DNA from: Tubiluchus corallicola | Taxonomy: Eukaryota; Priapulida; Priapulimorpha; Priapulimorphida; Tubiluchidae | NCBI GenBank assembly: GCA_030141605.1 | Contig: JAQGDQ010000078.1 | Span: forward strand, 310,001 to 374,000 | Reading direction: 5' to 3' | Length of the DNA: 64,000 nt | In this document: positions 9,816 to 58,178 of the stretch, in pieces | How the letters are laid out: each line of letters begins with the position of its first letter | How positions within the stretch are numbered: position 1 is the first letter of the stretch | Translations under genes and position numbers: made by a program | Notes under the pieces: model-generated | Seen by the model: only the letters and a program-made list of their open reading frames with translations | What the model was told of the DNA's origin: nothing | Database searches by the model: none

Positions 9816-9941
<126 letters not shown>

Positions 9942-10048: not shown

Positions 10049-13000
10049 ATGCCAGTCTGCATGTCGCAGAGCTGTATGATATTACTGTTATGTACAATGA
10101 TGGGAAGGAAGAAGAGGAACGTAATACGGGAAAACATGGGAAATTTACTATATAATAACTGCAAAAAAACAAAGAAAAATACAGAAATACTAAAGAGAAT
10201 TACTTACAATAGAAAACGAAAATTCTTAAGTTGAAGAAATGAAGTAATACTTAACCATATACATGTAGTTGAACTAGGAAATGAACGAGAAATTAGAGAT
10301 ATTACAATGAAAGAAGTAGAAGATGCTGCTAAGAATTCCAAAAAACGGAAAAATCGATAAATGAAATGATTATAATTATATGCAAGATATGATTTGAAAC
10401 ATGCAGTAGTACTAGATTAAGTAGCACCTGTTTACAAGTTAAGCGGTTTACATAGTGGCTGGTGAACCTTCACTAATTATTTGACATTAATAAAGTTAAT
10501 CATTTTGCTAAAAACTATGAGTGAAGCATAATCATTACAAAACGAAGTATAATTAAAATGCTTAATGGAATAAAAAAACAAGTAGTTTCAAGCCAGTAAA
10601 AAGAAATGAAAGATAAAATCGTTACCTAAAAAAGGTAGACACAGCATGACTAATAAAAGAGGGATATTTTTAACAAATGGATTAATTAAGTTATTCGAAA
10701 CAATTCTGGTGAAAAGAAAATGAAAAGTTTTCGAAAATGGAATAACAGAACGTCAACATGATGGACGAAAAAATGGGAGAAGTGTATCGCATATAGCATA
10801 ATAGGATAAGTAAGTATCATAAATGAGTAGGACAGGGACGTAAAAATAATTTTTTCACATGCTGAAAAGTGTTTTGATAAATGATGGCTGAGGGACAGTT
10901 TAATTAAACTATGAATGAAACGAGTATCATCTGAAGAAAAAAATATGATACATGATATGAGAAGGGAATGCGGAAATTGAGACACCAGTGAGAGAAACAC
11001 TGTTGGTAGAATTAGGTGAAATTTTGCAGCACGGAACAATCTGGGGACAAAGACAGTGTAGTGCGTCAACAGATGGAAGAAAAACGAATAAATGCCAAAG
11101 TATATTGATGATAATAATGAACAGATGATCAGTATGGCACAAATTTGCAAATACTTTGAAAAAAGAAAAACTTCACTTTTGATACTAACAATCGCAGTAG
11201 ATTATATCTACTAGCAATTATAGTAGAAAGGAAACAAAGAAAGGTAAAGAAAATGACACAATAGTTGTAAGAGAAAAATGGAATTATCTGTGGAACAAAA
11301 TGCTACAACTACCTAGGAGAACACATATAAGAAAATGGCAAAAAAGACAAGAACATTAAAAGGAAAGACTGGTCGGAATTGTGGCTAAAGAAGTTTTAGC
11401 GCAGAGAAACAAAAATAGACTTGGGAAATATGCCATAAAGCAAGATTACATTTTATTGAGACAGTAATTAAAGAGAATGGAAAAAATACAAAAAGACATG
11501 TTACAAAGGATATTCCTGCAGAAAATATTAGCAAGTTATTGGAGAATGTTGATAGAAGCGGGAATTTGGCGAATGGAGTACTGAATTTGAATTTGAATTT
11601 AACTTTTCATTTCACACTCAAGGTGTATAGTATAACACATACAATCACCCACAAATTATAGATACTACTTACAAACAAACAAAAAATACTAAACCATCTG
11701 TAACCTAATTCCCTACCATATAAAGAAAAAATAATAATAATCATGTATATAAGATTGATCGCCATTTAGCACGTATATTTGACGGGTACCTAATATCACT
11801 ATTACACAGCTAGTTCACAATGGCATTACTACTGTTTATTATCCTTACATACAGGCTAAACACACATTTTCTTCTAATAAAGTCAGAGCATTTTAATACA
11901 CATAATTGTATTGCACTAAAGTAGAACGGTTTTCCAAAAAGTTTACGCAGTAATACACTGTATGCTACTTTTAGTTTTTTAATATTGTAAAGATTGCAAT
12001 TTCTCCATGTAGCCATATAGCAATAGTTACTACAGTAGCCATTTATCAAATATCTTTTTACATCATCACTACGATTTTTAAATGTATTTAGCAGTTTGTT
12101 TGCTCTACAATAAAATGGAGAACGTTGCCTTAAGATGTCTACATCATCTTTGTTGTCTGAAGCTACAATATGTCCTAAGTATTTTTCTTGGTAACATGAG
12201 CTTATGCCACAATTGTTTACATATAATGAGCTAAACGACGCTTGTGACATGGTACTTGATTTAACAGAGATTAATTTTATTTTACTCTCATTCACTTGTA
12301 TGTCATGAAAAAATACTTCATATATATTATCAACTAGCTGTTGTAAAGCACTCATTGTTGTTGCCAGGACACAGACGTCATCGGCATACATCAAATGGTT
12401 AACATATTTTTCACCAAAGCAACATCTTTTTTGTGTTTCACTTAAATTAACACTAAGCTCCCTGAAATAAAGGTTGAAAAAACAGGAAAAAACAGGTGAA
12501 AAAACAGTAATCCACTTTGTTTTACACAGTTCCCTACTTTAAAGACTTGGGAATTAAACTTACTCCATTTAACAGTAAGCGCCTGCTCTGAATAAAGAAA
12601 GTACAACACACGTACAATAATTTTTGGAACTGTAGTTTGTAGTAATTTCAAAGAATAGCTTGTGGTACTTCATTAAGTCTTCGAGGCTTCCATGAACAAT
12701 AGATGCACAGTGCTTTGCTTATTCAGATTTGAATCTACAACTTCCTTCATTGTGTAAATACAAAGTTCAGTGCTGCACTTTTCCATGAAGCCAAACTGTA
12801 CAGATGTTCCTGCAAAGTTCTCACTGTATCTGTTGAGTATTAATCTTTCCAATAATTTACTACACATGGTCGAGATGGCTATCAGTTTGTAGTTATTTTT
12901 TAACATTAAATCTTCATTCTTGTTTCTAGCAATTGGTACTAAAATAGACACCATCAATGGCTCAGGTAGGTAACCATGTTTTACACATGCAGAAAATAGG

Positions 13001-13829: not shown

Positions 13830-16800
13830 ATGGGAAGAGTAGGTGGCTTGTTTGGAGAATATTTTTATCCAGTTTTTTTCGGCACTGTTAGTGTAGGATG
13901 TTTTTGTTTAGCAAATTATGTTAACAGAAAACCCATGTTTACAGGTGAGGTTTCCTACTGAACTCTGAATTAATTTTAATTTAATATCCAAAATTAGGAA
14001 TAATGAATATTTAACACTAATAGAAAATCTAGAAAGTAGCCTTGCATTACAATGCATTGTAGAATGCAATGCAGCATACTAAAGGCAGATCTAGCGAAGA
14101 ATCATTTAGAATTGAACAGCACATGCAGCTGTGTGCATAACAACGAAGATGCTAGTCATTACTTATTACATTATGAAAAGTACGATGACATTCTAAAGTT
14201 TTAAAAGAAACTAGAAGCGCAATAGCAATACCCTTCGCAAAAATCTTCCAGAAGTCAATAAACTCCGGCCAAATACCTAAACAATGGAAAGAAGCTATCA
14301 TTACTCCGATACATAAAAAGGGCATAAGATCAGAAGTAGAAAACTACCATCCTGCATGTCTGACTTCAGTAACTTGTAAAGTATTAGAATCTGTTATACG
14401 CTGACGACCTGATGAAATATTTAGAGGAAAACAATTTACTAAGCATCGAATAATATGGATTCTGAAAGGGAAGATCCTGTATCCTACAGCTGCTAGAAGT
14501 GCTAGAAGAATGGACAGATATCACTGACTGTGGGGAAGCAATCGATACTCTCTAGTTAGATTTCAAAAAAGCTGTTGACTCAGTTCCACATGATCATCTG
14601 CTAAGGAAACTTTAGGTAGATTGCAGCTAAGGTGGTTCTTTAAAGCACTCTCACATATTTTAAGGCACTCTCACATCGCCTAAATCAGAAATATCGCTGA
14701 AAGCAGAGCTACAATAGAAAGATGCATCCTTTATCTGCACACTGATGTAAAGAAAAGTTGAAACATACCTCCTATTTATATAAAAAAACTATTTTATACT
14801 GTTAGCATCGCGAGACAGACTAAGATTGACCGATTTGATGAAATATTTTCATTTGGGAGTTAGCAGAGAGCGATATTTTTTATCTACTACTGTGTGCCAC
14901 AGCCTAGAAAATCTCTTCACAAAAAAGAACCAAATTGTAAACTTAATGAAAAGTTAAAAAGATGCCCATTTTGCAGCACCTATGCGTGCCAGTAAGTGGC
15001 GTACTCTACTGGCGTTGTTTTGTAACTTTTGTTTGCGAAACGTGGTGCAACCAGCAAAGCAGGGTTGCAGTTTATACAACATAATAATTAATATTGGAAT
15101 ATATGATAACTTAAGGCTTCATACCATGCAAAAAAGGTGCTGTACGAAGATTATTAGTTAGTTAGTTAGTTAGCTAGCTAAGCTAGTCATTTAGTCAATC
15201 AATTAGTTTTGACGAGTTTGCGGTATGGCAGGTTGGCTTAGGCGGTTTGGCGTTCTTGGCAGCTTGGAGTTCTTGGCGGCTTGGCACTCTTTGCGGCTTG
15301 TCATTCGTGGTGGCTTGGCGTTCTTGGTGATGGAGCGGGAGAGGGAGGGGATGTTTGGAGTGGGAAGGAGGTAGAGCGTTGGCAGTGGGACTGATAAAGG
15401 AAGGTAGAAGGGTGTGAGGAGAACCACCTAAACTGCAAATGCATCGAAACTTTACGCATATGGAATTAGAGACCCTCTACTTAAATGGTTGCAAAATTTC
15501 TTGAACTCATTTCTCATTCCTTGAAGGACATGCAGTAAAATTTAGCGGTTGTCTTACCAATGAAGCAAATGTCATTAGTGGCATACCACAAGGGAGTATC
15601 TTGGGACCCATCCTTTTCATCACCTTCATTAACAACCTACCAGATATAGTGAGTTAAAGCACTGTGAACATTTTTGCGGATAACACAAAAACATATGGAC
15701 GAAGAGAAAAAGAAGATAATCATGTAAAACTGCAAAGCAACTTGCTTAATTTGTGTAAATTGGCTGAAGACTGGCAACTAAAATTCAACGTGTCAAAATG
15801 CAAAGTATTTCCTTGTGAAAATAGGAACCCAAAACTTAATTACCTCATGATGGAAAATGGAAGGATGAGCATTCTAGAGGAAGGGGAAGAGGAAAAAGAC
15901 CTGGGAGTTATATTTGACATGACACTAAAACCAAGTCAACATATAGCAGACGTGAGAAAGAAAGCCAACCAAAGAGTTGGTCTGATACGCAGAAGCTTTA
16001 CTTACTTAGACAAAGCGATGCTATCCCAGCCATACAAATCAATTGTAAGGAATGCGCAAATGTTTTTTGTTATCCAACTTAACTCGGCAAATCAAGGAAA
16101 ATGGAAGCAGTACAACGCAGAGCATCAAAACTATTAGAAGATATACAAAAGATGTGCCCTACACACCAAGATGGAGTATCTAAATTGGCCATTGCTGAAC
16201 TACAGGAGAATCAGGGGAGACCTGATATAAGTTAAACGTATATTAAACAACACTGCTAAAATTGCTACTGAAAATTTCTTCATGAAAGCCACATGCACCA
16301 GAACTCGAGAGCACACACGAAAACTATTCAAAAAGCAAAGTAGACTGAACTTGAAAGTAAACTCTTTCTCGAGGAGAGTGATAAACATATGGAACGAGCT
16401 ACCACAGGAGACCATAGATGCTAAGAACATAAACTGTTTTAAAGGAAAAATAGACAAAGCCCTACATTATCTTAGACACACATACATGTAAACACCAGTG
16501 AAAAGCCACCTCATTTTTGTGCAAATCAAATTATCCTATCTTTAATTGATATAAAGTATGGGGCAGAATAAGGTTTGGACTTAAAGAGGAGCCCAAAGAC
16601 AAAGGTATCAAGTATATTAGGCCAGTAATGCTAGCAAGCAAAGCCAAAGTCTAGATTTCATTCACTGAAGAATTCCCAAGGGAAGGCACAAATTTTGAAT
16701 GATTTTTTTCATTAGTGTGTTCAGTCCCAATGCTGCTCACTATGAAGTAACTACAGTGCAACAACATCCTGATATCAACAATGTTTGCATAACTGAAGAA

Positions 16801-29400: not shown

Positions 29401-31440
29401 ATCACTCCATAATTTTGGTGCCGCTACGCTAAAAACTTTATTAACTTGACTTAAGTTATAGATGGCACAGTTGAGTGGGATGACCATGAATTTAATTTTA
29501 GCCATTGTTCTTTGTAACCTGCAACTGCATTTTAAAAACAAACTTATTACACTGCAATACATTTATATCATTCACCCTCAGGAACCACTTTCCTACTTGG
29601 GCACTAGACCCAGTTGTATTTGTGAGTCGCGCAGATGTGCCATTTTCTGTTTGCTATTTACTAAAAATGAGTTAATCTTTTTAATTTGGAAATAAATGTA
29701 GAAAAATGCTTTGCACTTTTAAACATGTTTAGTCGATATATAATTAGGCACATTGAATAGTGACTGAACAATAATGACAGATTTTAAAGATCTAAATAAA
29801 AAAATTCTTCCAATATTAGTTGCTGAAAAGGCTTTCAAAAAATATCTAAACCGCAGGAAATGCACAGGAAAGCTATAGGAAAATATTTCAAATACTTACC
29901 AACACTTTTTGTGAACGTTGATACACTTGCACTAGCACTGGATAACAACGATGAGCTCCAGCTACCCCATGTACCCCATGACGAAGAACCCTGCTATAAA
30001 AACACGTCTTACTCTACATTATACACTCCTGTTACCTATTATATTATTTTTATAAACTACAAATAATAATTGCTGTTAGCAAATGACTATATAAACAAAA
30101 CGGCTCAAATTAATGAAATGGTAGATTCTAGACTGCAGTTCAGTCAGAACAAATCAGTATTTGAATAACTGTATACCACAGGTAACCACTTGAATTGACG
30201 CAATTATAGTGCATAAATTATTAGGCAAAGACAACACTACTAGACAAAGTTAACAAACATATTATTAGCCAAAACCTTTTTGTCAGCTGCCTCTCCCAAT
30301 TTTTCCAAAACATCATTCTCTCTTTCAGAGGGCAAATCTTTGACTTCCTCTCGATGAAGCCTGCGAGTAGGTGTACTCTCACGTTCAGTTTTAACCTAGA
30401 AAAAACTCAAATGCACTGTGAAATTATTTCAATAGAAAGAAACCATTTCTAAGAAAACAAAATTACACTGCCATATATATCCAAAAAGACATTGATTCAA
30501 TTCTTTAAAGTGTGTTTTCTCTCTTTAATCACTTAATATTAATCTAATTATTAAATATTTAGGATTTTGTTGATTATTGCTATACTTTGACAGTAATAAC
30601 TATTTGTAACACATATTAGTTATTACTGTACATCAGCATGAGTAGAAATAGTAACCATTCAAACCACTAACTAATGCTAATTTCAATGGTACCAATCCAC
30701 CAGACAAAATTAGCGAGGGAACAAAACTAACAGCTGTAGGTTACTAGTACACAGTTTGCTGTAAATACTCTGTGTGAGATTAATTTTGAAATCAATGCGC
30801 ACTATCGAAATTAGTCTGTGTTAGACTAATTTTCCACACAGACTAATAACACCAAACAGTGCAATTAGATTAATTCTGAAGAAGTGGACTGGAGGTTTTT
30901 GTCTACCATATGTTTGTTACTTTCTTCGAAAAATGAGTTAAGGCAGACCTATTTTTAATTTAAGTACTCAACAATACAAACACAAATTTCAGGTGAGATG
31001 GCTTGATAATTTGTAGAAATGAGAAAAATCAAATTGGCAAAAGTGATAATCTTATAGGTTTAAGTAACATAGTTCACGTTACAATGCACAAGTTACTCCA
31101 ATAGAATCTTCAATGCTTCATAATTAAGGCTGACATTAACTAGTCTACAGCATACCTTGTCACCTTCTTCTGCTTCATGACTAGTAGATTTCGCAACCTC
31201 TGTTTGCTCTCCAAATGCATCAATCTGAGTGTCTGTCAGTTCTTGAGTGTCAGTACCGCTTGTAACATCTTTAATCTCTTCAGCTTCACCGTCTGCCTGT
31301 CCAGAGCCATCCACTCCAGATTCTGCTGTACTCAACGAAAAGCCTGGGTCACTTGGTATCACAGTTGGGGAAATTTTCCCTCCATCATCACTGCCCTCAT
31401 CAGCACTTTCAAATTCTGCATCACTCTCTGTATCAGCCAT
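20463..31440 (-). CDS. FAM114A family protein (Noxp20/FAM114A1-FAM114A2 homologue)
   Basis: Twelve coding exons, 5' to 3': 31156-31440, 30276-30395, 29900-29990, 28819-28926, 27597-27757, 27051-27179, 25610-25715, 24702-24863, 23419-23582, 21851-21996, 21414-21486, 20463-20624. All joins are GT-AG and in phase, giving 568 aa, close to the human length. Residues 1-95 are acidic and disordered (MADTESDAEFESADEGSDD). A tryptophan motif WGTWGSW with SSSLLSSASASVSTF (about 136-160) matches the family's WGYWGSW...SLLSSASATV. Then come LEALETVGKKTMEQL, VLREAKEKAEQEAENKK, FLFDEFQGLAHLEALEML, AIKCLAELTAIGMETFHKSG and a C-terminus PLITNVYFEATNSTSYIQDG. The human proteins are cytosolic with Golgi/Rab2-linked roles; molecular function is not settled. 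GTG at 31443 is in frame but ATG at 31440 is the natural start. It represents both vertebrate paralogues equally, so no single symbol is given. Confidence 0.94.
23010..23395 (+). mobile_element. Non-LTR retrotransposon 3' fragment in a FAM114A intron
   Basis: The plus-strand frame reads HPLHEEFNKFLQHKIRSN then RFKFSFVPTSIKAFN, the typical extreme C-terminus of non-LTR RT proteins ('HPLHxxL...RTxRFxxSFIPxxIxxxN'). A polyadenylation-like CAATAAAG and a short ATGTCT tandem tail (near 23378-23392) follow. It ends only about 25 bases from FAM114A exon 23419-23582. Confidence 0.65.
23842..24045. repeat. Degenerate minisatellite in a FAM114A intron
   Basis: Loosely repeated units resembling GCTGCTGCACATTGTTTTATGC recur at roughly 25-30 base spacing (GTTGCACATTATTTTATGC, GTGCAAACTTTATGCGCATTG, CTGCAGTACATTGTATTACGC, CTGCTGCACATTGTTTTTG). 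Unit boundaries are blurred. Confidence 0.65.
25000..25076 (-). repeat. tRNA-like sequence (SINE-type or tRNA pseudogene)
   Basis: Read on the minus strand, ACTGACTTAGGTGTTTAAGGC gives a D-arm/A-box-like part, TCTGTTTTATAAGCAGA forms an anticodon-arm-like hairpin whose loop centre would be TAT, and GGTTCAAATC (25003-25012) is a canonical B box. It is intronic and acceptor-stem pairing is poor, so it is more likely a SINE head than a working gene. Confidence 0.55.
26347..26895. mobile_element. Candidate inverted-repeat DNA transposon in a FAM114A intron
   Basis: The left end ATGTCACACAGAGCAGGACA and the inverse of the right end (CTTGTCGCACAGAGATTGG) share GTCNCACAGAG. Further inside, both ends share AAGCCAT. 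The word GTCACACAGATTAT recurs internally. No coding capacity was seen and the target duplication is unclear. Confidence 0.5.
29332..29565 (-). mobile_element. Non-LTR retrotransposon C-terminal fragment in a FAM114A intron
   Basis: The minus-strand frame reads VNKVFSVAAPKLWSDLPI then SFLKTYFCKEGF, the widespread C-terminal pattern 'RAFSVAAPKLWNxLP...SFKxxLKTxLF' of non-LTR RT proteins. Nothing recognisable precedes it. Confidence 0.72.
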
Positions 31441-31477
31441 CACTGGAAAAGTGTATCCTTAATGGCATATTTAACGA

Positions 31478-38179: not shown

Positions 38180-41100
38180 ATGGCTTCAAATCAGGTTAGT
38201 TATTTGAAAGTAATCAAGTTTATCTATGTTTGCCTAGTTAACTTTTATATGACTCAGCTTACAGTTGCAGATTATTTGATTCCTTGCATAATATTTACAG
38301 CTTACAGAGAGGGTTGTGATGCTATATATATTACAGAAAGCCCAGCAGTTTTTTACTCACTTCATTATTGCACAGTTGAATATTATTTAGGCTCAACATT
38401 TTGGCTTGTTACACAGATCTATTTGCTTAGAATAGGTCGTTCGGCTTTGTCTAAAAATTGTACTCGGATGCGTTTTGTGTTTGAATGACAGAAAGTAGAG
38501 CTTTGTATGATTCATTGCACTTCATTACATTGTTTTTCTGAATTTAAACAAAGCAAATTCTTAGTTGTAATTCGATTAGTAATTAATGCTGCACGTAAAA
38601 CTGTACTATCACTTCATTCACTTAGAGGAAAGGCCAAGCCTTCTGGGAAGTTAAGCTTACTTCAGTGTTTGCAAAAATTGGTAGAAGGATTTAGTAATGA
38701 AAGTGTGATGAGCGCCTCGTGCGATGCGCTTACAAAAACCATGAAGTCCACCAGTTACTTCATCATTTTTAAGTGGATGGTGCTAATATTAACTTTTGGC
38801 TTTACTACATGCTTTTGCAAATTTCTTTGTTATATGTTGCTAATTAGTTTAAATGATTACACTAAACTGAATGCAACATTCTAAGTGACTTGTCTTTTCC
38901 CTTAAGATAAATGGGAAATGAGATACTGTATCTTTTTCAACATGTGCGTAAAAATGACATTTGAAACAAGAGGATTACTAACTACTAGTGTAAGATATTA
39001 TATGGCAGAGACTTCCTTTCATACTTTAGGCTTATAAAAAAGTTTGCACTCCCAGCGGCTATGCGAATTACATAAGATGTCAGCATTTTCGTGTCTTGTG
39101 TAATAATGTGCATTTTATTTTACCGAAATTTAGAGACCAGATGATCATAGAAGGAAGTGGGATACAGAAGAATATGAGAAGATTGCTTTGGAGAGGATTG
39201 AGGCCGAACAGCGGCTAGCTCTGGGACTCGATAAAAAAGAGAAGCCAGTCAAACGAGAACTTTTGCAAAAAAGAGATTACAAGGTTTGTAAAGAAACCTG
39301 CCTTGTAGGTACTTTGAAGACAGATTTTTTTTATACATTTGTTATTTGCTTCTGGAGAATCTAAAGTTTTAATAAAATTAGATGTCCTAATTCGTATGTA
39401 AATTATATTATCTTTGAAATAAAACGGGAACTCATTTTTTTACCAGTTTCTGTAAATTTTGGCAACATTAATCTTCACAGCAACATTCTGATAACCAGCA
39501 ACTAATAAGCTGCAGGTGAAATATTCATAGTGCAACATTACATTAGTAATGCCAATAAATTTGACTGCAAAAATCAGTTGAAAGCTCGTTATGATTAAAC
39601 TAGTGACTCTGTTTTCTAACTTAACAGCTTATCTACAATTGTTTTCACTGTTTGTGCATAGAACAAGTTTCATGATTTTTATTATGTTGCCTAAGATATG
39701 CATCAGTGTATCAGTAACAGTTCTATTATCATTGAAACATGATGTCTTAAATAAAAATGTATTTCATAAAAAAGTGTTCCTATGTTTTTGACTAATGCCT
39801 TCTGTTCTTCATATAGTTAATGCAATAATTGGTATTTGAAAGTTCCTTTTAACATTTTAAATAAGAAAACTGCTTCTTTTTTAATTTTTATGTCATCTCA
39901 TTCTGTACTATTATCACTATGATTATTTTTAGGTTGATCTGGAATCAAAGTTAGGAAAGTCACAAGTGATCACAAAAACTACACCTGCTTCACAGCAGGG
40001 CGGGTAGGTTCCCTTTATTTGATACTTGATCTTCATTATAATTTTTTTATTAATTTGTGTGCGTTTTTTATTTTAATTCTTATTGTACATTTTCTTGTAC
40101 AAATTTTTAATTATAACGTGTAAATTATTTTATGGTTACCTGGGCTGAAATAAAATTCTAATAAACTTATAATTAATTTTGGTGGTATGGTGTTTATGTA
40201 TTCATGAAATTCGAGGCTACAGCTTCAATGACGACACCATTTTGGGCGATCTGCATATCAAACCAAAGGTCTCAATCTAGTGTCATCTCATTGATGGTTT
40301 ATTTTTTTAATCGGGTCCACAGAAAGGAACCAGGGAGGAAAAACTTCCAAAAATTGACGTTTTTTGCACAACTTTTACGTCTTATTCCTGGAGAACAGCA
40401 ATGTGCCTGGCATAATGCCGGTAATGGTTAAATAATCTGTTCAATGGTGGGTGTAATAGGCATATTTGTAACTGCAACAGGCATTTTCCTGGACCAAACT
40501 CCAGATTTTTTCGAAATTTCACCAAACATAATAATAACATTTTTTAAGGCACGTGCCATGATCTAGGTGTTTCAGATTCTCTGAACCTGAAAAACTTTCT
40601 TCATTTCTATTTTTAGTTTTAAAAATAAGCCAATGTTTGGTTTGCTCAAAATATTCAGTACCAAATATGAATCACCTGGAAAAAATCAGAATACTACAGC
40701 TCACCTAATTCAAACTCACTACTAATTATCTACAAAATAAACTCATATTATTTTTATTTATACATACGTTGTTCATTGTTTTTATTAAAATTTTTTTTAC
40801 TCGGCTTTACATTTCTATGTTTTCCATATCCACTTGCCCAGCAATGTGAACTTCTACTAATAACTGTTACCAAAATCTATGGCCGTGCCACATTTAATCA
40901 CTGATTGTTACAATTTAGAGTGTATTTCATGCAAAAGTTATTGCAACGCTGACAGTATTTCTTTCTTAGGTATTATTGCAATGTTTGTGACTGTGTGGTA
41001 AAAGATTCTATCAACTTTCTGGACCACATTAATGGGAAAAAACGTATGTATTTTTGCCATTTTACTAATTCAATGCCTTAACAAAATCTGCTCAAGAAAA

Positions 41101-44100
41101 TTCTTTATTTTCATTTATTTTTATCTATCAATAATTCGCTTGTTGCAGGTAGGGATGTTAATGATAACGATACGTATCGATAATTGTAGATTATTGTATT
41201 GATATGAAAAATTGGCTTTTAGCTTATCTGTATCCTAGGAATATCGTTATCGTATCGAATTTGGCAGGTATCGTTGCTTATCGATTGCCTTTATAAAATC
41301 GCTTCACATTTCTTTTCTGTTTATCTACAGTAATTGAGCAAAGAAGTGGATAAAAAGAATTATTTAAAAGTATAAGCTTGTCAGATGCCGAATCATTTTC
41401 GTGTACTTGCGCCTGGCATTTTATTCTAAATCATACCGACAATGAGACCCCTTACACACTTTGTTACTTTGCAGATGTTAAATAGCACTGTAACGTATGT
41501 TTAGTGTCCTTTCCCAGTCATGTGCTGATCGCATAGATAATTATTTTTATCACAGTAGTGTTCTTTATCCATTGCAGCTTACTTATTTATGAATCATTAT
41601 GACAAACAAACTTGTGTTTCAAAACGAGCAGCCATTTAAGTGTACATCACTGAAAGCACTAAAGCACTTAATAATTTTCATTATTAATGATACTTTTTCC
41701 GTTGTTGTATAAATTGTCTAATTTCAGTATCGTTTTTATCGCTCGAAATAATTTATCGTACCGTATTGTCTAAAAACAATTTATCATTATCGTCTCATTA
41801 GAAAAAAGTATCGTATCGCCAAATTTGTGTTGTTAAACATCTCTAGTTGCACACGCAAGTACTACAGTACTACAGGTTTCTATTAACAGCTTTAACTTTC
41901 TTCTAGATCAGAGAAATCTTGGGATGTCCATGCGTGTAGAGCGCTCATCACTAGACCAAGTAAAAAAGCGATTTGAACTAAATAAAAAGAAAAAAGAAGA
42001 ACGGTTAAAAGAATATGATTTTGAGCAGCGGGTTCAGGAACTCAGGGAAGAGGTAACAATCAAGTTGTTAATTATCAAAAATTGTATTTACGGTCTGTCT
42101 GATAAATTTGTACTGCGTAACATGGAATAATGCCAGAGGCGTAACAAGGTGAGCGCAACGGGGCAATCGTTCCATGGCGCAAAATTTTTCTAGAATTCAA
42201 TGACTGTTAATTATTAATTACACAGCCAACATTAACAAAACAATTAGCAACAGTTTTCAAACAACAACAAAATTCCTTAGCCAAAGATCGTCGTACCTGA
42301 CTTAATTACTACATACAACCTAGAAAAAAAGGCTAGTGTTGTTACTTAATGGTGTGTTGAAGGTGAAAATGTTGATAATTTTGGAAGAAACAGTGGCGTT
42401 TTTCTAAACGTCGATTGTATTATTGTGAAGACCTATAGTGTTCTGTATCTTTCATAATTATCTTTGCATGCTTTAATGCTGGAGCAGAATGTTTAAGAAC
42501 TGTCGTGTTATGCACAACTAATGCATAGAAAAAAGTTAATATGGTGCAGTAGCACAAATCAAACTCATGGTGCTTTTTGGAAAAAAATTATTTGTCTTTA
42601 TCCCATCATGTCGAAAAAGGAAAGTCGAGATCAGGGACGCAAAAAAACGGGCACAATTTGTGGCTTCGCCCACGAAACAAAGGGCGCCAGAAGTTTTTTA
42701 TCCCCGCGCACCACAAGCACTTGCTATACTAGTGAATAATGCTCAGTTCAGACAAATTCTGATGGCTGTATTTGTTCTTATATCTTTTCACACTGAAAAT
42801 CACTAACTGTAACTTGGATCATGATTCCAACTTGTTAAATATTTTTGATGCTTTTAGAAAAAAATCAACTATTCTGTTATCTGTGTTCACCTCACACCCA
42901 AGAACTGAAAGAATGAGCAGTACCTTTAGATTATCAATAAATAAAAGTCATTTCATAGGTCTGAACATTAGGTTTTCTGGTAGCCACTGGCTGCCTGTTA
43001 AGCAATATCCTACATATAAAAACAAACAGTAAGCGAGTATAAATCCATCTATAGCATTTTGTTGGCATGTTTGTTGACATGTTTCAATCAGCCTAGCATA
43101 AAATTAATGTCTTAAAGTATGCACCTGCTTTTCTTCCAAAAGTGGTAAGAAAATTTTGTGATCATAATTAACAAAAAATATATTGGTATTAAATTTATGG
43201 TACATTAACTTTAGCTGGAAGAGAAAAGATTGCATTTTTTTGATATATTGATACTTCTCAGGTACAAGTGTTCGTTGAACTACTTGTCCATTTAATACCT
43301 AGTTGATCAGCCAACTAAATGATCCTTTGCTTGAATAGTCACTTGTGTTAGTGACTAATTAGTTATTAATTTTTGTTTGTTTTTTTGCATTTTAACTGCA
43401 ATAATAATTTATATTTGCTTTTTTGCCATCAGGATTCATCAGCATTATTTCTTAAGGATAGTGTCCATTGCAAAAACTGGTGTAAAAAATTTTGACCCAT
43501 TTTTGACGTTTGTGGTGAAAACTTTGAAAGTTCGTGAACACTCGTGTGTTAAGGTCACGGGCTAGAATTTTATATAAACTTATGTAGTGTTATTGCAAAT
43601 GCCTTGACTTTGAAATTACAGTTAATGAGCCATCCATGTCTGTGAAACATAAATGGAAGTGTTATATCTAATTACATAAATAGCACAACTGTGCTGCCAC
43701 AACATGACACAATTGTGCCAGAATTTATTGAATGTAATCAAGAATAGTGTAATCAATACATACATACTCCAACAATATCAGGATTGTTTACCTAGGCGGC
43801 TAATTCAGAAAATGTACCATTAGTTGTAGACTATATTATATTACAAAAATGTTGTTATTCGCTTTTGACATGGTTGATTAATTCTGATAATATTACTTGC
43901 TGTTTAAGTATTCAGATATTCATGTTACATCAAAATTACATAACTTTTGGCAGTCAAGATTGTACAGGTAATTCATTTATTTTTACAAAAATTCTGACTT
44001 GTAAACATTTAATTATTTTGTTAGTTTAATCTCATAATTTTTATAAATTTTAACTTTTCACTGTAAGTGTTTTATGAATCTCATGTTGGAAATAAAATCC

Positions 44101-44297
44101 TGTTTACAATAAGCTGTTGCGCATATTTCATCTCGATGATTTCCTTTGCACAGGAAGAGCGACAGAAACAGTACAAGAAGGAAAAGCGAAAGGAAAGAAA
44201 ACGCAAAGCTGACGAGTCTTTAGAAAGAATATCTGGCTCCGACGACATGGCATCTCTGATGGGCTTTTCAGGCTTTGGAGGCAGCAAAAAACATTAA
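38180..44297 (+). CDS. ZMAT2: ZMAT2 (Snu23) spliceosomal matrin-type zinc finger protein
   Basis: Coding exons are 38180-38194, 39134-39283, 39933-40003, 40970-41043, 41907-42052 and 44154-44297. All have GT-AG borders and correct phase. The product is 199 aa, the same length as human ZMAT2. Exon 1 is only 15 bases (MASNQ). Conserved blocks are [25 protein letters not shown], the matrin C2H2 finger (Cys82, Cys85, His98, His104 in [20 protein letters not shown]), [34 protein letters not shown] and a basic lysine-rich segment. The C-terminus is [12 protein letters not shown]. In yeast and human this protein sits in the pre-catalytic B complex near the U6/5' splice site. The gene stands alone on the plus strand. 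Introns 4 and 5 hold transposon-like inserts. Confidence 0.97.
41150..41845. mobile_element. hAT-like non-autonomous element in ZMAT2 intron 4
   Basis: The left end TAGGGATGTTAATGATAACG and the inverse of the right end TTAAACATCTCTA share TAGNGATGTTNA. Flanks are GTTGCAGG and GTTGCACA, an 8-base duplication with two changes, as expected for hAT elements. The interior is rich in overlapping ATCGAT, CGATAC and TATCGT words near both ends. There is no transposase. Confidence 0.8.
42133..42735. mobile_element. Possible inverted-repeat element in ZMAT2 intron 5
   Basis: The left part AACAAGGTGAGCGCAACGGGG and the inverse of the right part (GCAAGTGCTTGTGGTGCGCGGGG), then TTCCATGGCGC against TTCTGGCGC, look like decayed inverted ends. 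Identity is low and no target duplication was established. Confidence 0.3.
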
Positions 44298-49141: not shown

Positions 49142-52100
49142 TCAATTAACATACCTCGACTGTTTTGTTCCGTTCACTTGGAAGAGATCAACACGGGGAG
49201 AACTAAAAAGGTCCATTAGCAAATCCTCTTTCTGCAAAACGTCAAATAATAACATACTTAAATCAAATACATTGCATTCAATTTGCCAAACATTATCATC
49301 TTTCCAGCAACTATTAAGATATTAATCATTTATAATTTTGTTTCAAGAAAGAATGCAATTAATAGTCGATTCAGCCTATAGCTATTAAGTTAAAAATCAA
49401 AACCGAAAAATGTGAAAAAGCTTGGTCCAAACATGGATATGAACCAGTGACTTGTGTATTACAAGTTCAGCACCATGACCACAAGACTACTCAGCCTCTT
49501 GTGATTAAGAATAATCTTAGTAACTCACCAATCAATCTAGTATTTCCAAGTAAAAGTTCACTTACACTAGAGTGATTATACATTTTTCTAATTTTAATGT
49601 TTTTAAAAGTCATTTAAAAATGATTAGTTTTTTATTGGACATTCAGATAAAATGTTCATCAGCAAGAACCAGTAAGGGTTCAAGAATGAAACTGCTATGT
49701 TTGCAGCACTAACACAAAACTGTTTGTTATTCAGCCTGGATTTTGATATTTCTATTTAGTTATGCACTGCTGCATTAAGACTGATGTCTGATCTTGAATC
49801 ATAATAGAATTAGAAATTTACCACTGTAGCTACTGCACGGGCTACCCACATACACAGGTACGGATGTAAAAATCAATTACATACTAAAGATGGCTACCGT
49901 AAAGTATCTGGAATGTATTTATAGTTTTGACTTTTCCTTTCAAGATTTCAGCAATAAAATTTCATTTTAAAAATATTATATTTTTCCTTTATAAATTGGC
50001 ACGTAAAAATCTTGTTTTACAAAGCAATACTCACTTTACTACAAAGTTTCCACCAGGTGTCTCAATAATATGCAATTAATAATATTTGCTCTGTTAATAC
50101 GTATCCAAAAAATACTATTTAGAAATGTGTAGTGTAACATCACATATTTTTCAGAGTTCATTGTGGCATTTTTCATTAAAAGCATCAACCTGTTGTAGAT
50201 CTAAGAATTTATCTTGCTGCAAGCACAGTTCATCTACAACTTTCACTAATATATTTCGTAATTGCTATGCCAAATTCAAATGCAAGAGCCGGTATCCTGA
50301 TACTTGTACAGAAAGTAAAGAAGATCAACGTAAGTGTAAACACCAGTTATTGCTGAATACCTTTTCACTCTCAGTTGTTTCAGTTGCTTGCAGTTTCTTT
50401 CTTCTTTGGTTTTGCTTCTTCTTATCTTTGATTACAGTTCCGTTGCCTTGAGTTACTTTCCGAAATATGCGTTTGCTCGAAACTCTCTTCCTGTTTTCTT
50501 TGCTGTTTGTGTGTATATTTTCACCATTATAATTTGTTTGCGCTCTACGTTGTCGCAGAGTTCTGCTTCGAGAAGAACTCAAACCATTACACTTGTTTGG
50601 AGCCTATAAAAGAATGATGAGATTACACAAATTGCACAATCATTAAAAATTGTTTGAATGTACCTATCAAAAAAACATACGCATAGATATAAAAGAATGG
50701 CACAAGATAACATAAATGTGATATTACATATTAAGAAAACATGCAAATAATTCCCATCGGATGTGTACTAAAGGCGACAGACACGTGAAAGCAGGCATAC
50801 AAGAATAAAGTTCTTGGCTCAAAATAGAGCCAATAACCATCCCATTTTAGCTAAGACTTAGAAAGTAGATGCTTAGAAAACCAACAGTAAAATACAAACA
50901 TGAATAAATCAAAGCATCACCAAGGATTTGAGATATCACATATACTGACTAATTTTATCAACAAGCTTAAACAATATTAACTCGCATCATGGACACAACC
51001 ACTAACAATTTCAACTTTTAACAAAGACATGACTGTATTGAAACAAATATCATCCCACTTGAGTCAATGGTTGGCAATTTATTGTACACCTGACACAAAA
51101 AATATTTTCCCAGGATTCAATTTACAGTGAAATGTTCTGTCATTAAATACCTTCTGTAAAGGCAAAACTGGTCCCAAAACAGCTTGCTTCTTTTGCCTAT
51201 TTTGAGCTGTTACTCTTTTTGTCAATCCTGCAAAACCAAATTTGTTACGTTAGCAAAAGTTAACATTCAAAAAATACACTCAATTATCAATTACATATAG
51301 TGTAACACCAATAACCACATACAAAATGCACTTAAATTATCTGCAAGGCTGGTTCATAAGTGTTCTTTAAATAAAGAACAAAAACAGAACTGCATCACCT
51401 ACAACCAAAAACCGATAAATGATAAATATGTTGCAAGTTTTTTTGTGAAAAATTGATTGCATTCGTAATTATAACTACCACTAACAAAAAGCAATTTGTG
51501 TTTTTTAAATAAAAAATATGCAAGTGAAAATTGAAATTGTAACATTTCCAACTGGTAGTGCCATGTAATTTTGTTTTGAAAGGCATCACATTTTGCATTT
51601 TGTAGCAACAAATTTTACACATTTCCATGTTCTAATTCTTACTCTTTGAGAATACTCCCTTGTGTTATTGCCACAACAAAGATGATTTCATTACCTTTAT
51701 AATGCACATTCTGAGGCTGGTTTTCAATTTCATCAAAATTATGACCATCGGGTGTTCCAGTTTTGGTCTTTTTTCTTTGCTTCCATTTGTTGGTAAGAAA
51801 ATTAGTTTTATCAACTAAATGTGCATTGCTGCTGTTCAAGAACTTGGTTAATTTGATCTTTCTCCTAGGGCTAGTAACTGGAGATATTGATTGGTTTATA
51901 TGTACAATACTTCCATTGGCAGAGAAGTGCTTTTGTCTGTGCCACTGCAGCATCTGCAAACTTGAATCATCCTGCTTTTCTGGTGTTGAATGATTTCCAT
52001 CGTTATGCACTTCGGCCGAGACAGTAATGACATTAGCCTCAGCATTGGGTGTTTTACTCAAATTCTCAAATGAAATTGGAGCAATATCCAATTTTATATT

Positions 52101-55100
52101 TTGCTCTGTATGAGAAAATGGCGTGCTTGTCATAAAACCACAAGCCTTAGTTGAACTGAATTTCTTCTCTACCGAACGCAAAGGACACCCGCCTGCTGCC
52201 AAATCTTCTCCAATTTTCAACATACATGCAAATACTGTATCTTTCACTGTGCATGTATTCGGAGAAACATGTTCCAGAGATTGAGTAGCCATGTTTTCAA
52301 TGATTTCTTGCATTGCATTTTCAGCATTTCTTACAACTTCCTTACTATCTACCAAACTAAATTTATCCGAAGCAATGTGGTCACATGTTTCTGAAACTAG
52401 AGGTGAAATTTTTTTTTTCACGAACACACAATTTCTCATCTCACTATCTGTATTAGAAATACACTTAGCATTGGTATCATCAGAAGCAGCATCACTTTCG
52501 TCCTCACCCAATTTTGTTGTTGCACTACTAATATCTTCTTCACTCATCTTTGTTGCACCACCAGTGCCTTCCTCGCCCATCCTTGTTGCACCATCAGCAC
52601 CTTCCTCACCCATCTTTGTTGCAGCATCAGTACCTTCCTCACTCATCTCTGTTGCAGCATCAGCACCTTCCTCACCCATCTTTGTTGCAGCATCAGTACC
52701 CTCCTCACCCATCTTTGTTGCACCATCAGTACCTTCCTCATCCATCTTTGTTGCAGCATCAGCACCTTCCTCACCCATCTTTGTTGCAGCATCAGTACCT
52801 TCCTCACTCATCTCTGTTGCAGCATCAGCACCTTCCTCACCCATCTTTGTTGCAGCATCAGTACCCTCCTCACCCATCTTTGTTGCACCATCAGTACCTT
52901 CCTCATCCATCTTTGTTGCAGCATCAGCACCTTCCTCACCCATCTTTGTTGCAGCATCAGTACCTTCCTCACTCATCTCTGTTGCAGCATCAGCACCTTC
53001 CTCACCCATCTTTGTTGCAGCATCAGTACCCTCCTCACCCATCTTTGTTGCAGTATCAGTACCTTCCTCATCCATCTTTGTTGCAGCATCAGCACCTTCC
53101 TTACCCATCTTTGTTGCGGCATCAGTACCTTTCTCACCCATCTCTGCTGCAGTATTAATATCTTCCTCAAGCAACATTATGGCAGTATCAGTACCTTCTT
53201 CACTTGCCATTATTATAACGCTTTCTGAAGGACTGAAGTTTGATACACCTATTTCTGATTCAGACATTTCTCTAACATTTTGAGTTTGTGGTATAGGTTC
53301 TAGCTTTTCATCCATCTCAGAATTAACTGCATCATCACTTAAATTTCCACCTTTTGCTTCATCTGTATGTTGTGAGCTAAGGCTGGCTGTCGGTGAACCA
53401 ATGTGCTGTGTATCATTAGAATAAGAATCTTTCTGAGACGAATCTTCATCTTCCTCTTTTGCACGTACCGTGGAAAGGTAGTATTCGTAAGTTTCGGGCT
53501 CCACACACAATTCAACATTATCACAGTCAGAATCCTGTGATTCATTAAACTGACCACCTCCATTTTCAGTTCTGTTTTGGGCTTCTTCATGAGCACATTT
53601 TGCTATTAACAATGATCTTTGCTCACGACATGATCTAGAGTAAGTCAACGGAGATTTCAACTTCAATGCTTGCTGAGACAACAGCTCTGTATCGGTGTTA
53701 TCATCGACTGCTTTAATATTATCGTACTCCTTCATTTGTGTACTGTCGTCAATTTCTTTTATTTCATCGTCTGACAAGTCAAACAATGCTGGAACACTTT
53801 CACCCATAGGCTTACTCTGTTTTCTCCACGTTTGAGCCTTACTTTCTTTTTCTATACCACTACATAGCTCATCATTTTTCTTATCTGACACTGAAATTTT
53901 CTGGTCTAATTTCCCATTTAGATCATATAAAGAATTCATGCTACTAACTGCTAAGTTCTGTTGACAAGCCTCTAATATCACTGCTTGTGCTATTTTTGGG
54001 GACTTCAAATGTTCTAGTTGCCGCTCCTTAATTGATTTGATGCAAGTTCCTTTATTGTCCTTAAATTCCTCATTTGAATTTGAATCAAGAGAAGCACAGA
54101 TATATAAATTTTGACTAGAATCTTTACCAATACTGTCTTTACTTACAGAGACTTTTACCAAATCTTTAGAATCACTTTCAACAGGTTGCTGCGAATCCAT
54201 AAACCTTTTCTCTTTTAAGTGAATTGCTTGATCAACAAATCCACTTCTTTCTAAAAAATCAGTATCTTTTAACACAGTTTTTTCCCTTTTACTATGGGCA
54301 GAATTTGTACCACTCTGTGAGTTTGCATTTTCTTCTGGTTTTACATCATTTAAGCTCCTCAGGCATGCCAATCTAGCCGATTGTCTAAGAGGAACACACT
54401 TTTTTTGTTTGCGGCCCTTCTTTCCTTTACATGCACCACTAGCGTCACTGGTCTGATTAGTTGGCACAATGCTCCTATAAAAAACAAAACAACAAACTTA
54501 CTAAAGTTTACTTACTGAAGCAAAAATTTTTTTATATTTCTTATAAACATGCAGCTCATTCCGATTGTTAATTTGGGGTTTTGTTTATCGAGGAGCTACT
54601 GGCAATGGTACAACCACGATTTTGCAGTTTGCATTAAACTAGGAAGCTCCCACTTAATAATTGAATCTATTATCTGCAATAATGCAAAATTAATGTCTAG
54701 CAAATTTAAAATGGTTGTTTCTGTTCATACAAATCTGCAGGTAGTGGTTATTTTTCTCTCCATAAAGTACAGAAATCTACACTGCACATTGCGCAAAGCA
54801 ATTAATGTGTATATACTTGGATTTTTCTTGTCCCTTTCCTCATCCCTCTAGAAAGTTTTGCATAAAGTGGTTTTTGCATAATTTGGTTAACTAACTGACA
54901 AACCAACGGTGACGAAAACATAGCCGCCTTGGTGGAGATAATTATTTGAGTAAATGCCACCAAAACAGTGTTAAAGTCAAATACATGAACACCAGCTATA
55001 GCGTCAGAAGAAATTTCCTTTTTAAGCTACACTCCAGTGGTGGTTACTGATTGGGGCAACATTACTATTTCTTACAGGAACTCAATCCACCAATCATCAT

Positions 55101-55516
55101 TTTTTATCATCATTTAAGAAAATCGGCAAATTTTACTCGCGAAACTGCTCAACACACTCTACAGATAATGTGTTCTAGCACATTATCCAATCTTGTGTAC
55201 ATTATTTAAAAATCAGCGACAAGTCTGTAACATCATCTAACCGATGTGTTAGATAATATTATTTTCTTCCGAAGCAAACCTACATATGACTAGACAAAAA
55301 AACATAAATTACAAAATCAGCTAGCAATGTTTAAAACGTGTCTGTCTTGTCTTTCAGTATTAAAACACTAGAAAACTCTTCACTTACATAAAGCTTCAAA
55401 AACTCGTCTTGAAATTTTACATCATGCCTTTTTGCATATACAGGGCTTGCATCGACAGTAACGGTGTATAAAACTTGTAAATTTAAACTCCCGTGATGAC
55501 CCTTAGACGCAGCCAT
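49142..55516 (-). CDS. 1,130-aa nuclear-looking protein with an 11-residue repeat array; family not recognised
   Basis: Six coding exons, 5' to 3': 55388-55516, 54600-54673, 51695-54474, 51151-51227, 50361-50603, 49142-49231. All joins are in phase with GT-AG borders; the last exon reads on to a TGA at 49142-49144. Residues 1-67 are hydrophobic-mixed (MAASKGHHGSLNLQVLYTVT; IKWELPSLMQTAKSWLYHC) and may be the only folded part. Then comes a basic patch (KGKKGRKQKKCVPLRQSARL), a long Ser/Asp/Glu-rich disordered region, about twenty copies of an 11-residue unit like MGEEGTDAATK (about residues 499-717), and a second basic tail (SPRRKIKLTKFL; SRSRTLRQRRAQTNYNG; KKKQNQRRKK). Polybasic clusters suggest nuclear or chromatin association, which is inference only. 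The 74-base second exon was placed by phase and gives a convincing hydrophobic peptide. I do not recognise the family. Confidence 0.8.
49425..49500 (-). repeat. tRNA-Thr-like sequence (SINE head or pseudogene)
   Basis: The minus strand reads GTGGTCATGGTGCTGAACTTG (A-box-like D arm), an anticodon-arm-like ACTTGTAATACACAAGT with loop centre TGT, then CACTGGTTCATATCC (B box, plus-strand 49436-49445). The loop triplet TGT would read threonine. The acceptor stem is not convincing. It lies in the intron between the last two exons of the repeat-protein gene. Confidence 0.6.
52526..53180 (-). repeat. Coding minisatellite: 33-bp units in a 165-bp higher-order repeat
   Basis: About twenty tandem 33-base units encode 11-residue peptides alternating EEGTDAATKMG, EEGADAATEMS, EEGADAATKMD and EEGTDGATKMG. 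The pattern repeats every five units: the marker ACTCATCTCT occurs at 52641, 52806 and 52971, exactly 165 bases apart. No stop or frameshift occurs in the array. The outer units are more diverged (INTAAEMG, ISSATTKL), the usual sign of expansion from the centre. Confidence 0.97.
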
Positions 55517-56012: not shown

Positions 56013-57977
56013 TCACCTGATAGGTTTAGTCAGTTCTGTTTTTTTATCTTCAGTTTGATCACCAATCTGTGGGTTGAATCTTATTTCGTAAGTATCTTCT
56101 GAGAGCTGAGTACCATTTGCATATGATTGAACAACATCATATTCTGCAATAAACATACAATATTTGACATGACATCTATTTAACAAGACCGTAAGTAACG
56201 GCTAACATATAAACTAGTCTACAGAATTTATAAATGCATTAGTCTTAAATTAGGTTAAAAAATGGTAAGCTTAGCACTTTCTTTATATTGCACAAAGTTC
56301 TAATTGCACATAACAATTTTTTGAGACAATTTATCTACAAAAGGAAAATGAACAAATACATAATTGTTGCTAAAATTCTTCAACCAATAAAGAATTAGCA
56401 GGTGGGTAATGCTTGCTTAAGGCATGCCCTACATCTTCAACATCTTTTTTACATCTGTTAATGTGAATGGCAAACATCGTAACAAACTAACTAAAAAGGC
56501 CCGAAAAATGTTTGCGACAATAATTAATAAACGACAAAGAAAGATTTTTTGCCATAATCAAAGTACAGAATGAACGGCTGAAATGGAAAGGAATACTGAA
56601 TGGGTGTCCTTTCAAAGGAAAGGACAGGTCATTTAACATGTTGGGTTTATTTTACTGTTATCACTTAAACTTAAAAAATGTAGCAAAGAAATTTTCAAGC
56701 GCAGTGGTAGCCGCTATTCATTTGAAAATTACGACATAACTGGCGGACTTCGTGGCTTTTCATAAGCACATAGTGACTGTCCGTAAACGCACTGCTGAAA
56801 CTAATCCAAACGTCTGCAGCTCATCTATTGCTTAAGTAGAAATATCTCAAAATTATCTATCTGATACTGGAAGAATGGGAGTGCCTAAGCATGGAAATAT
56901 TACAACTTCAAAGTGATTTTACTAATTAATTACAGAAGGCTCTTATAACATTTTATTATTAAATCTTTCTAACATTCTTTGCAAACATTTAGATAAACCT
57001 AATTTCCAGGAATGCTTGGCCTTTCCTTTAACGAGTAAGTCTACAAGTGACAAGAGGTCATGGTGACGTCACTTTTTTAGTGAGGCAGAAAAATGTCATG
57101 AAGTGCAAAGTAAGATGCTTTCACATAAGTGATTTTGAAAATTGTACTGTTAACACTTGCTCAATTACAAATACTACAGCATTTATTCCGGATGGGACAT
57201 GCTATGTCATCGTCTTCCGCGATTTTTCGCCAACTATCAAACCAATCAATGTCAATCATTGATGTACAGAACGTAATTTACATGTGCTATTTTGGAAAAA
57301 ATGCAAAAGCAAACACCATAAATTAGATTTGAAACTGTTTATGTATCATTTGAAATCGAGTATCAGGTTAAATGTTTTTGTTACTAAGCAACTTAATCTG
57401 ACAAAACTAACAATGCATTGGAAAATAACTGTATTTTTCTACCCGATAAAACTGGAGAGGAACAAGGAAGGTGTTGAACTACAGTGCCTTCCTGAATCAC
57501 ATCTCTGTAAGACATCCGCATACTCCCAGGATCAACACTGCAAACAGTACTTGGAGAAATTCCACTTGGTGAATATACTGATGATGGCTTAGCAACCATA
57601 CTCGCTTGTTTTCTATAACATTCATAAAGCCTGTTTATGCTACAAGATTTCATGTTCAGTATTTCAAAAAGAAACCAAAAGGTAAACATTCTTTATACTA
57701 ACACTTTACCTGCAGCATGTGTACAGATATTTCTGATGAAAACGAATTCTCACCCTTGTCCATTATTTCTTTTTGCATTTGGTTTCTTTTCACAAGCATA
57801 CAACATCTTCTCACTTTCCGAAAGCTTAAGCCACATATCTTGCATTTTGTGACGTATCTGCGGTGCAGTGAGAAACGGATACAGTCTCTTCACATCATGC
57901 TGGTGTTGCAACGCGTATCGCTTGAAACTGCCGGCAGCTTTCCCTCTTGGTTTTCTAATTCGACTTGTTGGTGGCAT
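56013..57977 (-). CDS. Small HMG-box protein (159 aa)
   Basis: Coding exons, 5' to 3': 57754-57977, 57488-57612, 56013-56143. Exon 1 opens MPPTSRIRKPRGKAAGSFKR and holds an HMG-box-like domain at about residues 8-66. The pattern is aromatic FKRYALQHQ, VKRLYPFLTAPQI, then MWLKLSESEKMLY, with the W and the E-K-x-x-Y end typical of the fold. The rest is Ser-rich (KPSSVYSPSGISPS) and ends TEDKKTELTKPIR. The ATG follows an acceptor (ATTGCAG|AATG), so a non-coding 5' exon is likely. The exon 2 to exon 3 join keeps phase only if the intron starts with GC (GAAG|GCACTG) or if an unseen exon lies between. The specific HMG subfamily is not recognised. It is adjacent to, and on the same strand as, the 1,130-aa repeat protein. 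Confidence 0.72.
56616..57027. mobile_element. TTAA-type inverted-repeat element, family P, copy A (412 bp)
   Basis: The ends are AGGAAAGGACAGGTC and the inverse of GGCCTTTCCT. Flanks are TCAA (left, a changed TTAA) and TTAA (right). It shares about 250 bases of left-end and 200 of right-end sequence with copy B, including GGCAGTGGTAGCCGC-like and GGAAGAATGGG words. It lies in intron 2 of the HMG-box gene. TTAA targets are characteristic of piggyBac-type elements; no transposase is present. Confidence 0.85.
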
Positions 57978-58178
57978 TCTGCAATCACATCATATTATAA
58001 TCAAGTTATTAACATTGCCAATCTCAATATATGATTTACTTCTGTGTCACTTTAAAGTTAAGTACCACTGGAGGTGCAAAAGTTTTCAGACCTTCCAACT
58101 AAGTAAACTGCTTTCACGTGCTTACTGTATGATTTACATCACACTATCAGCAACAACAATTTAATAGCAAAACATTAA

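Follow-up and report, generated by a model that had tools for sequence, protein, structure and literature searches.

What does an array of 33-bp units encode when it lies inside a long open reading frame of the priapulid Tubiluchus corallicola, and by what history did its units come to be arranged in blocks? The locus lies on contig JAQGDQ010000078.1 (assembly GCA_030141605.1), and the window is the stretch of 64,000 nucleotides from position 310,001 to 374,000 that was analysed as a whole; the coordinates below count from its first letter. Here we describe the anatomy of the array and the gene that probably contains it, and weigh a disordered spacer against readings in which the repeat would form a helix or bind basic partners.

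Anatomy of the array

Tandem Repeats Finder reports a period of 33 with 21.7 copies at 52486-53203, and the score of 1010 is the top of its 18 rows in the window. The array resolves into the following parts.

52545..53138, minus strand: core array, 18 units of 33 bp / 11 aa, consensus GEEGTDAATKM
52611..53039, minus strand: interior in exact five-unit (165-bp) order DEFGH DEFGH DEF, 0/264 mismatches at a 165-base offset
53139..53204, minus strand: two decayed units on the N-terminal side (SEEGTDTAIML, LEEDINTAAEM)
52479..52544, minus strand: two decayed units on the C-terminal side (SEEDISSATTK, LGEDESDAASD)

The original prediction of twenty repeats is in agreement with this anatomy, as its interval 52526-53180 amounts to 19.8 unit lengths and the 18 core units are joined by two decayed ones on each side. 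Each core unit matches the unit consensus at 29 to 32 of 33 bases. When the units are lettered by exact DNA type they read ABC DEFGH DEFGH DEF IJ, with 13 of the 18 following the exact pattern. Units five apart (lag 5) share a mean identity of 0.972 over 13 pairs, and those ten apart (lag 10) one of 0.955 over 8 pairs; lags 1-4 and 6-9 give 0.902-0.915, and the lag-5 identity was reached by none of 100,000 permutations of unit order. The drop to 0.879 at lag 15, where all three pairs include an edge unit, identifies the five-unit order as a property of the interior and not of the whole array.

The comparison of bases gives a similar picture. An offset of 165 bases yields a single exact run of 296 bases (52592-52887), and the core as a whole has 12 mismatches in 429 positions, six of them against edge units I and J and six against A, B and C; at an offset of 330 bases an exact run of 131 bases is found in the array. 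Outside the array the best 264-base stretch in the window at the 165-base offset is 42% identical, while a 23-base unit word, allowing up to three mismatches, occurs 18 times in the window, always within the array, and not once in 100 shuffles. A five-unit super-repeat of 165 bases had been proposed for the array, and the lag-5 identity and the 296-base run uphold it for the interior but not for the array as a whole, the edges of which are off the pattern.

Open frame and predicted gene

The array is contained in a minus-strand open frame of 952 codons (51639-54497 including the stop), so that units of a length divisible by three (33 bp) sit in tandem inside a long open frame. The openness of the array itself is uninformative on coding, because all three plus-strand frames are stop-free over the core as well; the other two minus-strand frames contain 3 and 34 stops. 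That the array is coding is argued instead from its surroundings, since the flanks are open for 445 and 282 codons, 727 in all, which would happen by chance with a probability of about 1e-22 given a background stop frequency of 0.067. The plus strand also has an antisense frame of 332 stop-free codons (52285-53283), of which 198 overlap the core and 134 lie next to it; we set this frame aside because no plus-strand frame of the array has a stop; it is probably a by-product of the codon pattern of the array, with a purine at every first codon position. The predicted gene model has the following exons, the splice sites of which are putative.

51695..54474, minus strand: main exon (exon 2), 2,780 bases, TATAG acceptor 10.7 and AAAG/GTAATG donor 6.9
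51151..51227, minus strand: probable next exon, 77 bases, in phase, acceptor 7.1 and weak donor 4.8
50325..50603, minus strand: probable last exon, 279 bases with the stop, encoding a basic C-terminal tail, acceptor 10.0
55388..55516, minus strand: possible first coding exon (MAASKGHH...LKLY), start at 55516 and donor at 55388

Splice-site scores of 6-7 are no exception in this sequence: of the 3867 GT sites on the minus strand, 148 score at least 6.1. The exon of 2,780 bases that had been predicted fits the splice-like signals at 54474-51695. A protein of 1,130 aa, however, is not recovered: exons 2-4 are mutually in phase and give 1,044 aa, and the possible first exon would add 43 but is out of phase. 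Its donor at 55388 has the wrong phase for the main exon, barring a further exon or another donor, and this mismatch makes the place of the first exon in the gene doubtful. Two candidates of the right phase for a missing exon between the first and the main exon (20 and 80 bases) were rejected, neither being convincing. The G+C content falls from the first to the third codon position in both flanks and in the array, and does not in the last exon. We infer that the gene is expressed.

The remainder of the window contains further coding fragments. A minus-strand frame at 57753-57989 looks like an exon and includes a stretch resembling an HMG box (20.6 bits, short of the cutoff of 25.4); the frame seems to belong to a neighbouring gene on the same strand as the array. 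A reverse-transcriptase fragment at 11813-12538 on the minus strand (RVT_1, 23.1 bits, below the cutoff of 29.6) is likely a LINE remnant, and a plus-strand frame at 15658-16134, by eye similar to the RVT_1 frame, had no match at E up to 0.01. Frames at 3963-4256 (minus), 31096-31458 (minus) and 39134-44294 (plus) resemble exons of PRMT9, FAM114A and ZMAT2, a likeness that points to an animal genome; four single frames tested among them had no Pfam match at E up to 0.01. Adjoining AAC and AAT microsatellites (16.7 and 23.7 copies) lie at 9818-9937, and neither Rfam nor tRNA scans gave a hit in the window.

Homology searches

The whole 952-aa frame has no Pfam family above cutoff. Phasin_2 (PF09361, cutoff 24.9 bits), which scores 15.8 bits with the whole frame, reaches 30.3 bits (218 aa) and 28.9 bits (198 aa) with the array alone. 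These scores were compared with 19 column-scrambled arrays, which keep the 11-residue period and some of which may be amphipathic themselves. Four of the scrambles exceed a family cutoff, three of them that of Mucin-like and one that of HSP9_HSP12, and Phasin_2 is listed for two of the 19, both times below cutoff. Because column-scrambled arrays also pass cutoffs, we put the Pfam matches of the array down to its period and composition, and membership in Phasin_2 is rejected despite the score of the array alone, as column scrambles give scores of like size.

Apolipoproteins and LEA proteins contain 11-residue amphipathic helices, and the array shares its 11-residue periodicity with apolipoprotein and group-3 LEA repeats. 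Apolipoprotein A1/A4/E (PF01442) was nevertheless rejected, with 14.6, 20.1 and 19.8 bits against a cutoff of 90; the family is listed for six of the 19 scrambles, one of them at 54.3 bits compared with 20.1 for the true array. LEA_4 (PF02987) is unlisted for the true array at E up to 10, and is listed for one of the 19 scrambles, below cutoff. In the PDB the 952-aa frame has no match at E up to 1 and the first exon none at E up to 10, and the array (E up to 10) retrieves two designed helical proteins at E 0.071 and 0.3. Prokaryote and viral contigs were searched with the 412 residues that precede the repeats on the N-terminal side, by way of six short peptide patterns, and none of the pattern matches in bacterial or archaeal (18) and viral (2) contigs was confirmed by tblastn.

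The first exon has a by-eye likeness to the ZGRF1-like N-terminal domain (PF10382; ZGRF1/Dbl2/Mte1; PMC4909299) which the tests do not support. Five forms of the first-exon sequence matched 0 Pfam families, and the pairwise scores were equalled by 252-716 of 2000 shuffles; as a control for PF10382, 28 residues from a human ZGRF1 fragment gave 39.8 bits. The first exon may contain a very diverged ZGRF1-like domain.

A probable disordered acidic spacer

The core array has a net charge of -40 in 198 residues, and the 145 residues directly before it are also acidic (net -28); over residues 301-660 the net charge is -73 (array -40, rest -33). The last 184 residues carry a net +32, and a basic cluster, KGKKGRKQKK, is found at residue 16, near the start of exon 2 and some 420 residues ahead of the array. 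The basic clusters that had been predicted on both sides are thus present, strongly in the C-terminal tail and once near the exon 2 start, but the segment that adjoins the array N-terminally is acidic. In charge-hydropathy terms the array, its N-terminal flank and the C-terminal tail all fall on the disordered side, and the 283-residue rest of the main exon falls barely on the ordered side (0.425 vs 0.420).

Variation among the units gives little sign of constraint. The 18 core units show 14 kinds of single-base variant, 10 amino-acid-changing and four silent, and four in 14 is close to chance, the silent fraction expected without selection being 23-27%, depending on transition weight. The variants of the array, small in number, offer no evidence of purifying selection. 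Positions 4, 8, 9 and 11 (Gly, Ala, Thr, Met) are invariant in the 18 units, and all 22 units, the decayed ones among them, have the alanine at position 8, which runs counter to a lack of constraint; this alanine and a modest 3/11-helix pattern are the sole points for selection in the array. The frame would be kept without any need for selection because 33 is 3 x 11. Of the suggestion that the array is a frame-keeping spacer, either length-tolerant or selected, the length-tolerant part stands, as no constraint is visible, whereas 'selected' finds little support.

We consider it probable, with moderate confidence, that the array is an in-frame minisatellite coding a length-tolerant, acidic and mostly disordered spacer, in a host protein that is long, of low complexity and equipped with a strongly basic C-terminal tail. 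We infer that this protein is probably nuclear. The array segment would serve as a flexible, negatively charged linker, possibly touching the basic tail.

A possible conditional helix and other readings

The best surviving alternative to a disordered spacer, which we nonetheless regard as unlikely, is that the repeats fold conditionally, into an amphipathic 3/11 helix or a hendecad (11-residue) coiled coil, and bind a surface or partner in that state, with length tuning avidity in a manner like that of perilipin-4. Such a helix would set a face of small apolar residues (Met, Gly, Ala) against a charged one; the hendecad register is our own reading and not a computed one. Consistent with a 3/11 helix, the 3/11 harmonic is the strongest of five on three hydrophobicity scales, but the permutation support is modest, with an equally strong harmonic in 2.3%, 0.4% and 6.3% of column permutations. 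On the 3/11 wheel the four charged columns lie side by side, an arrangement that 11 of 330 choices would give, and this result is not independent of the harmonic. Over the array (starts 419-573), 88-residue windows have a hydrophobic moment above 1.0, with angles of 97-99 degrees. Angles of 96-97 degrees are also the best in three other windows (starts 166, 177 and 375), where the moments are 0.67-0.76. Mean helix propensity, in which lower is better, is only somewhat better in the array (0.473) than in the flanks (0.532 and 0.575), which speaks little for a helix.

AlphaFold2 often renders repeats as helices. Run without an alignment, it places long helices over the array, which favours the helical reading, but the five models of a 264-residue piece vary from 40.7 to 72.3 in mean pLDDT, the best being 72.3. 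The blocks reach 56-87 when the core array is given short flanks. For the main exon, mean pLDDT is 42.8, with 679 of 925 residues below 50, and the array blocks are at about 56-70, mostly below 70, which counts against the helical reading. Taken as models, these results suggest a possible conditional helix in a disordered protein and not a demonstrated fold.

The four decayed units have Leu or Ile at six of 16 places on positions 1, 5, 9 and 11, which belong to the apolar face of such a helix, and the edge units are perhaps traces of an older, more hydrophobic repeat. Against this, each of Glu, Lys and Asp also turns up once in the same 16 places, and three of the four decayed units have Asp at position 4.

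A comparison with perilipin-4, the nearest published architecture known to us, bears on the same alternative. Perilipin-4 is described as 11-mers in 33-mer blocks that form a 3/11 helix unfolded in solution; droplet targeting was lost when the net charge per 33-mer was changed from +1 to -1, and this mutant was rescued by added hydrophobicity, positive charge being deemed advantageous and not essential (PMC5889406). Measured against this charge effect, the strongly acidic polar face of the array speaks against a helix of that kind. In one myopathy family the coding repeat of perilipin-4 has grown from 31 to 40 copies (PMC7360652). The perilipin-4 repeat consists of conserved 33-mers in 29 or 31 copies, a coding 99-base repeat. 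Both it and the array are coding arrays with 11-residue periodicity, a block of several 11-mers, weak hydrophobicity and, with modest permutation support in the array, a 3/11 wheel. The array differs in having a block of five where perilipin-4 has a block of three, in being strongly acidic where perilipin-4 has +1 per 33-mer, and in belonging to a chain that is probably nuclear. The weak face of perilipin-4 is made of Val/Thr, and that of the array is Gly/Ala/Met. No Pfam perilipin match is listed for the main, first or last exons at E up to 10, a setting at which the HMMER filters discard most matches above about 0.1. By analogy, the array would work like perilipin-4 at most, and is not a member of its family.

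Somewhat less probable than a conditional helix is a role in the nucleus as a multivalent acidic segment, with electrostatic binding to basic tails of the protein itself or of histones, and with charge and copy number selected and not the exact sequence. The occurrence of net -73 (residues 301-660) and net +32 (last 184 residues) in one chain would agree with such a role, but the units themselves argue otherwise, two of them having changed Glu to Lys and three Lys to Glu. We give only a slim chance to a bolder proposal, in which the array of a nuclear protein would form a very long, acidic helix of the amphipathic 3/11 type or a hendecad coiled coil, its length tuned by five-unit exchange, perilipin-4-like with charge reversed and with a non-lipid partner.

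Amplification history

The disordered spacer that we prefer would have arisen in two steps. An 11-residue unit would first have been amplified in tandem, and a five-unit block would then have spread via unequal exchange or slippage, the interior being homogenised while the edges decayed. Copying in the interior thus appears recent and the edges older. Exchange is taken to be recent because the inner copies are identical over 296 bases while the edge units diverge; for 0 differences in 296 the 95% upper bound on divergence is 1%, with overlapping comparisons treated as independent. The recent homogenisation in five-unit blocks that had been proposed is supported by the 0/264 mismatches of the inner comparison. 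Unequal crossing-over, slippage and gene conversion are all compatible with the array, and its sequence does not tell them apart. As the inner copies are identical, polymorphism in repeat number is plausible from this one sequence.

That the copy number or five-unit order is partly an assembly artefact is very improbable: the 296-base exact repeat is close to short-read length, but ordered inner blocks between distinct decayed edges are the usual product of real unequal exchange, the 131-base exact run at a 330-base offset is likewise typical of it, and an artefact would alter the copy count and not generate 33-bp units.

Implications

The array resembles coding VNTRs and minisatellites in its in-frame unit, near-identical inner copies, decayed edges and low-complexity host region. 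No essential difference from them was found, the clear five-unit block being the sole marked feature, and we regard the array as an ordinary kind of coding repeat. It provides a clean example of block-wise interior homogenisation in a coding repeat with ageing edges, and is a candidate for length polymorphism. If the helical reading were true, it would be an acidic, possibly nuclear addition to the long 11-mer amphipathic arrays.
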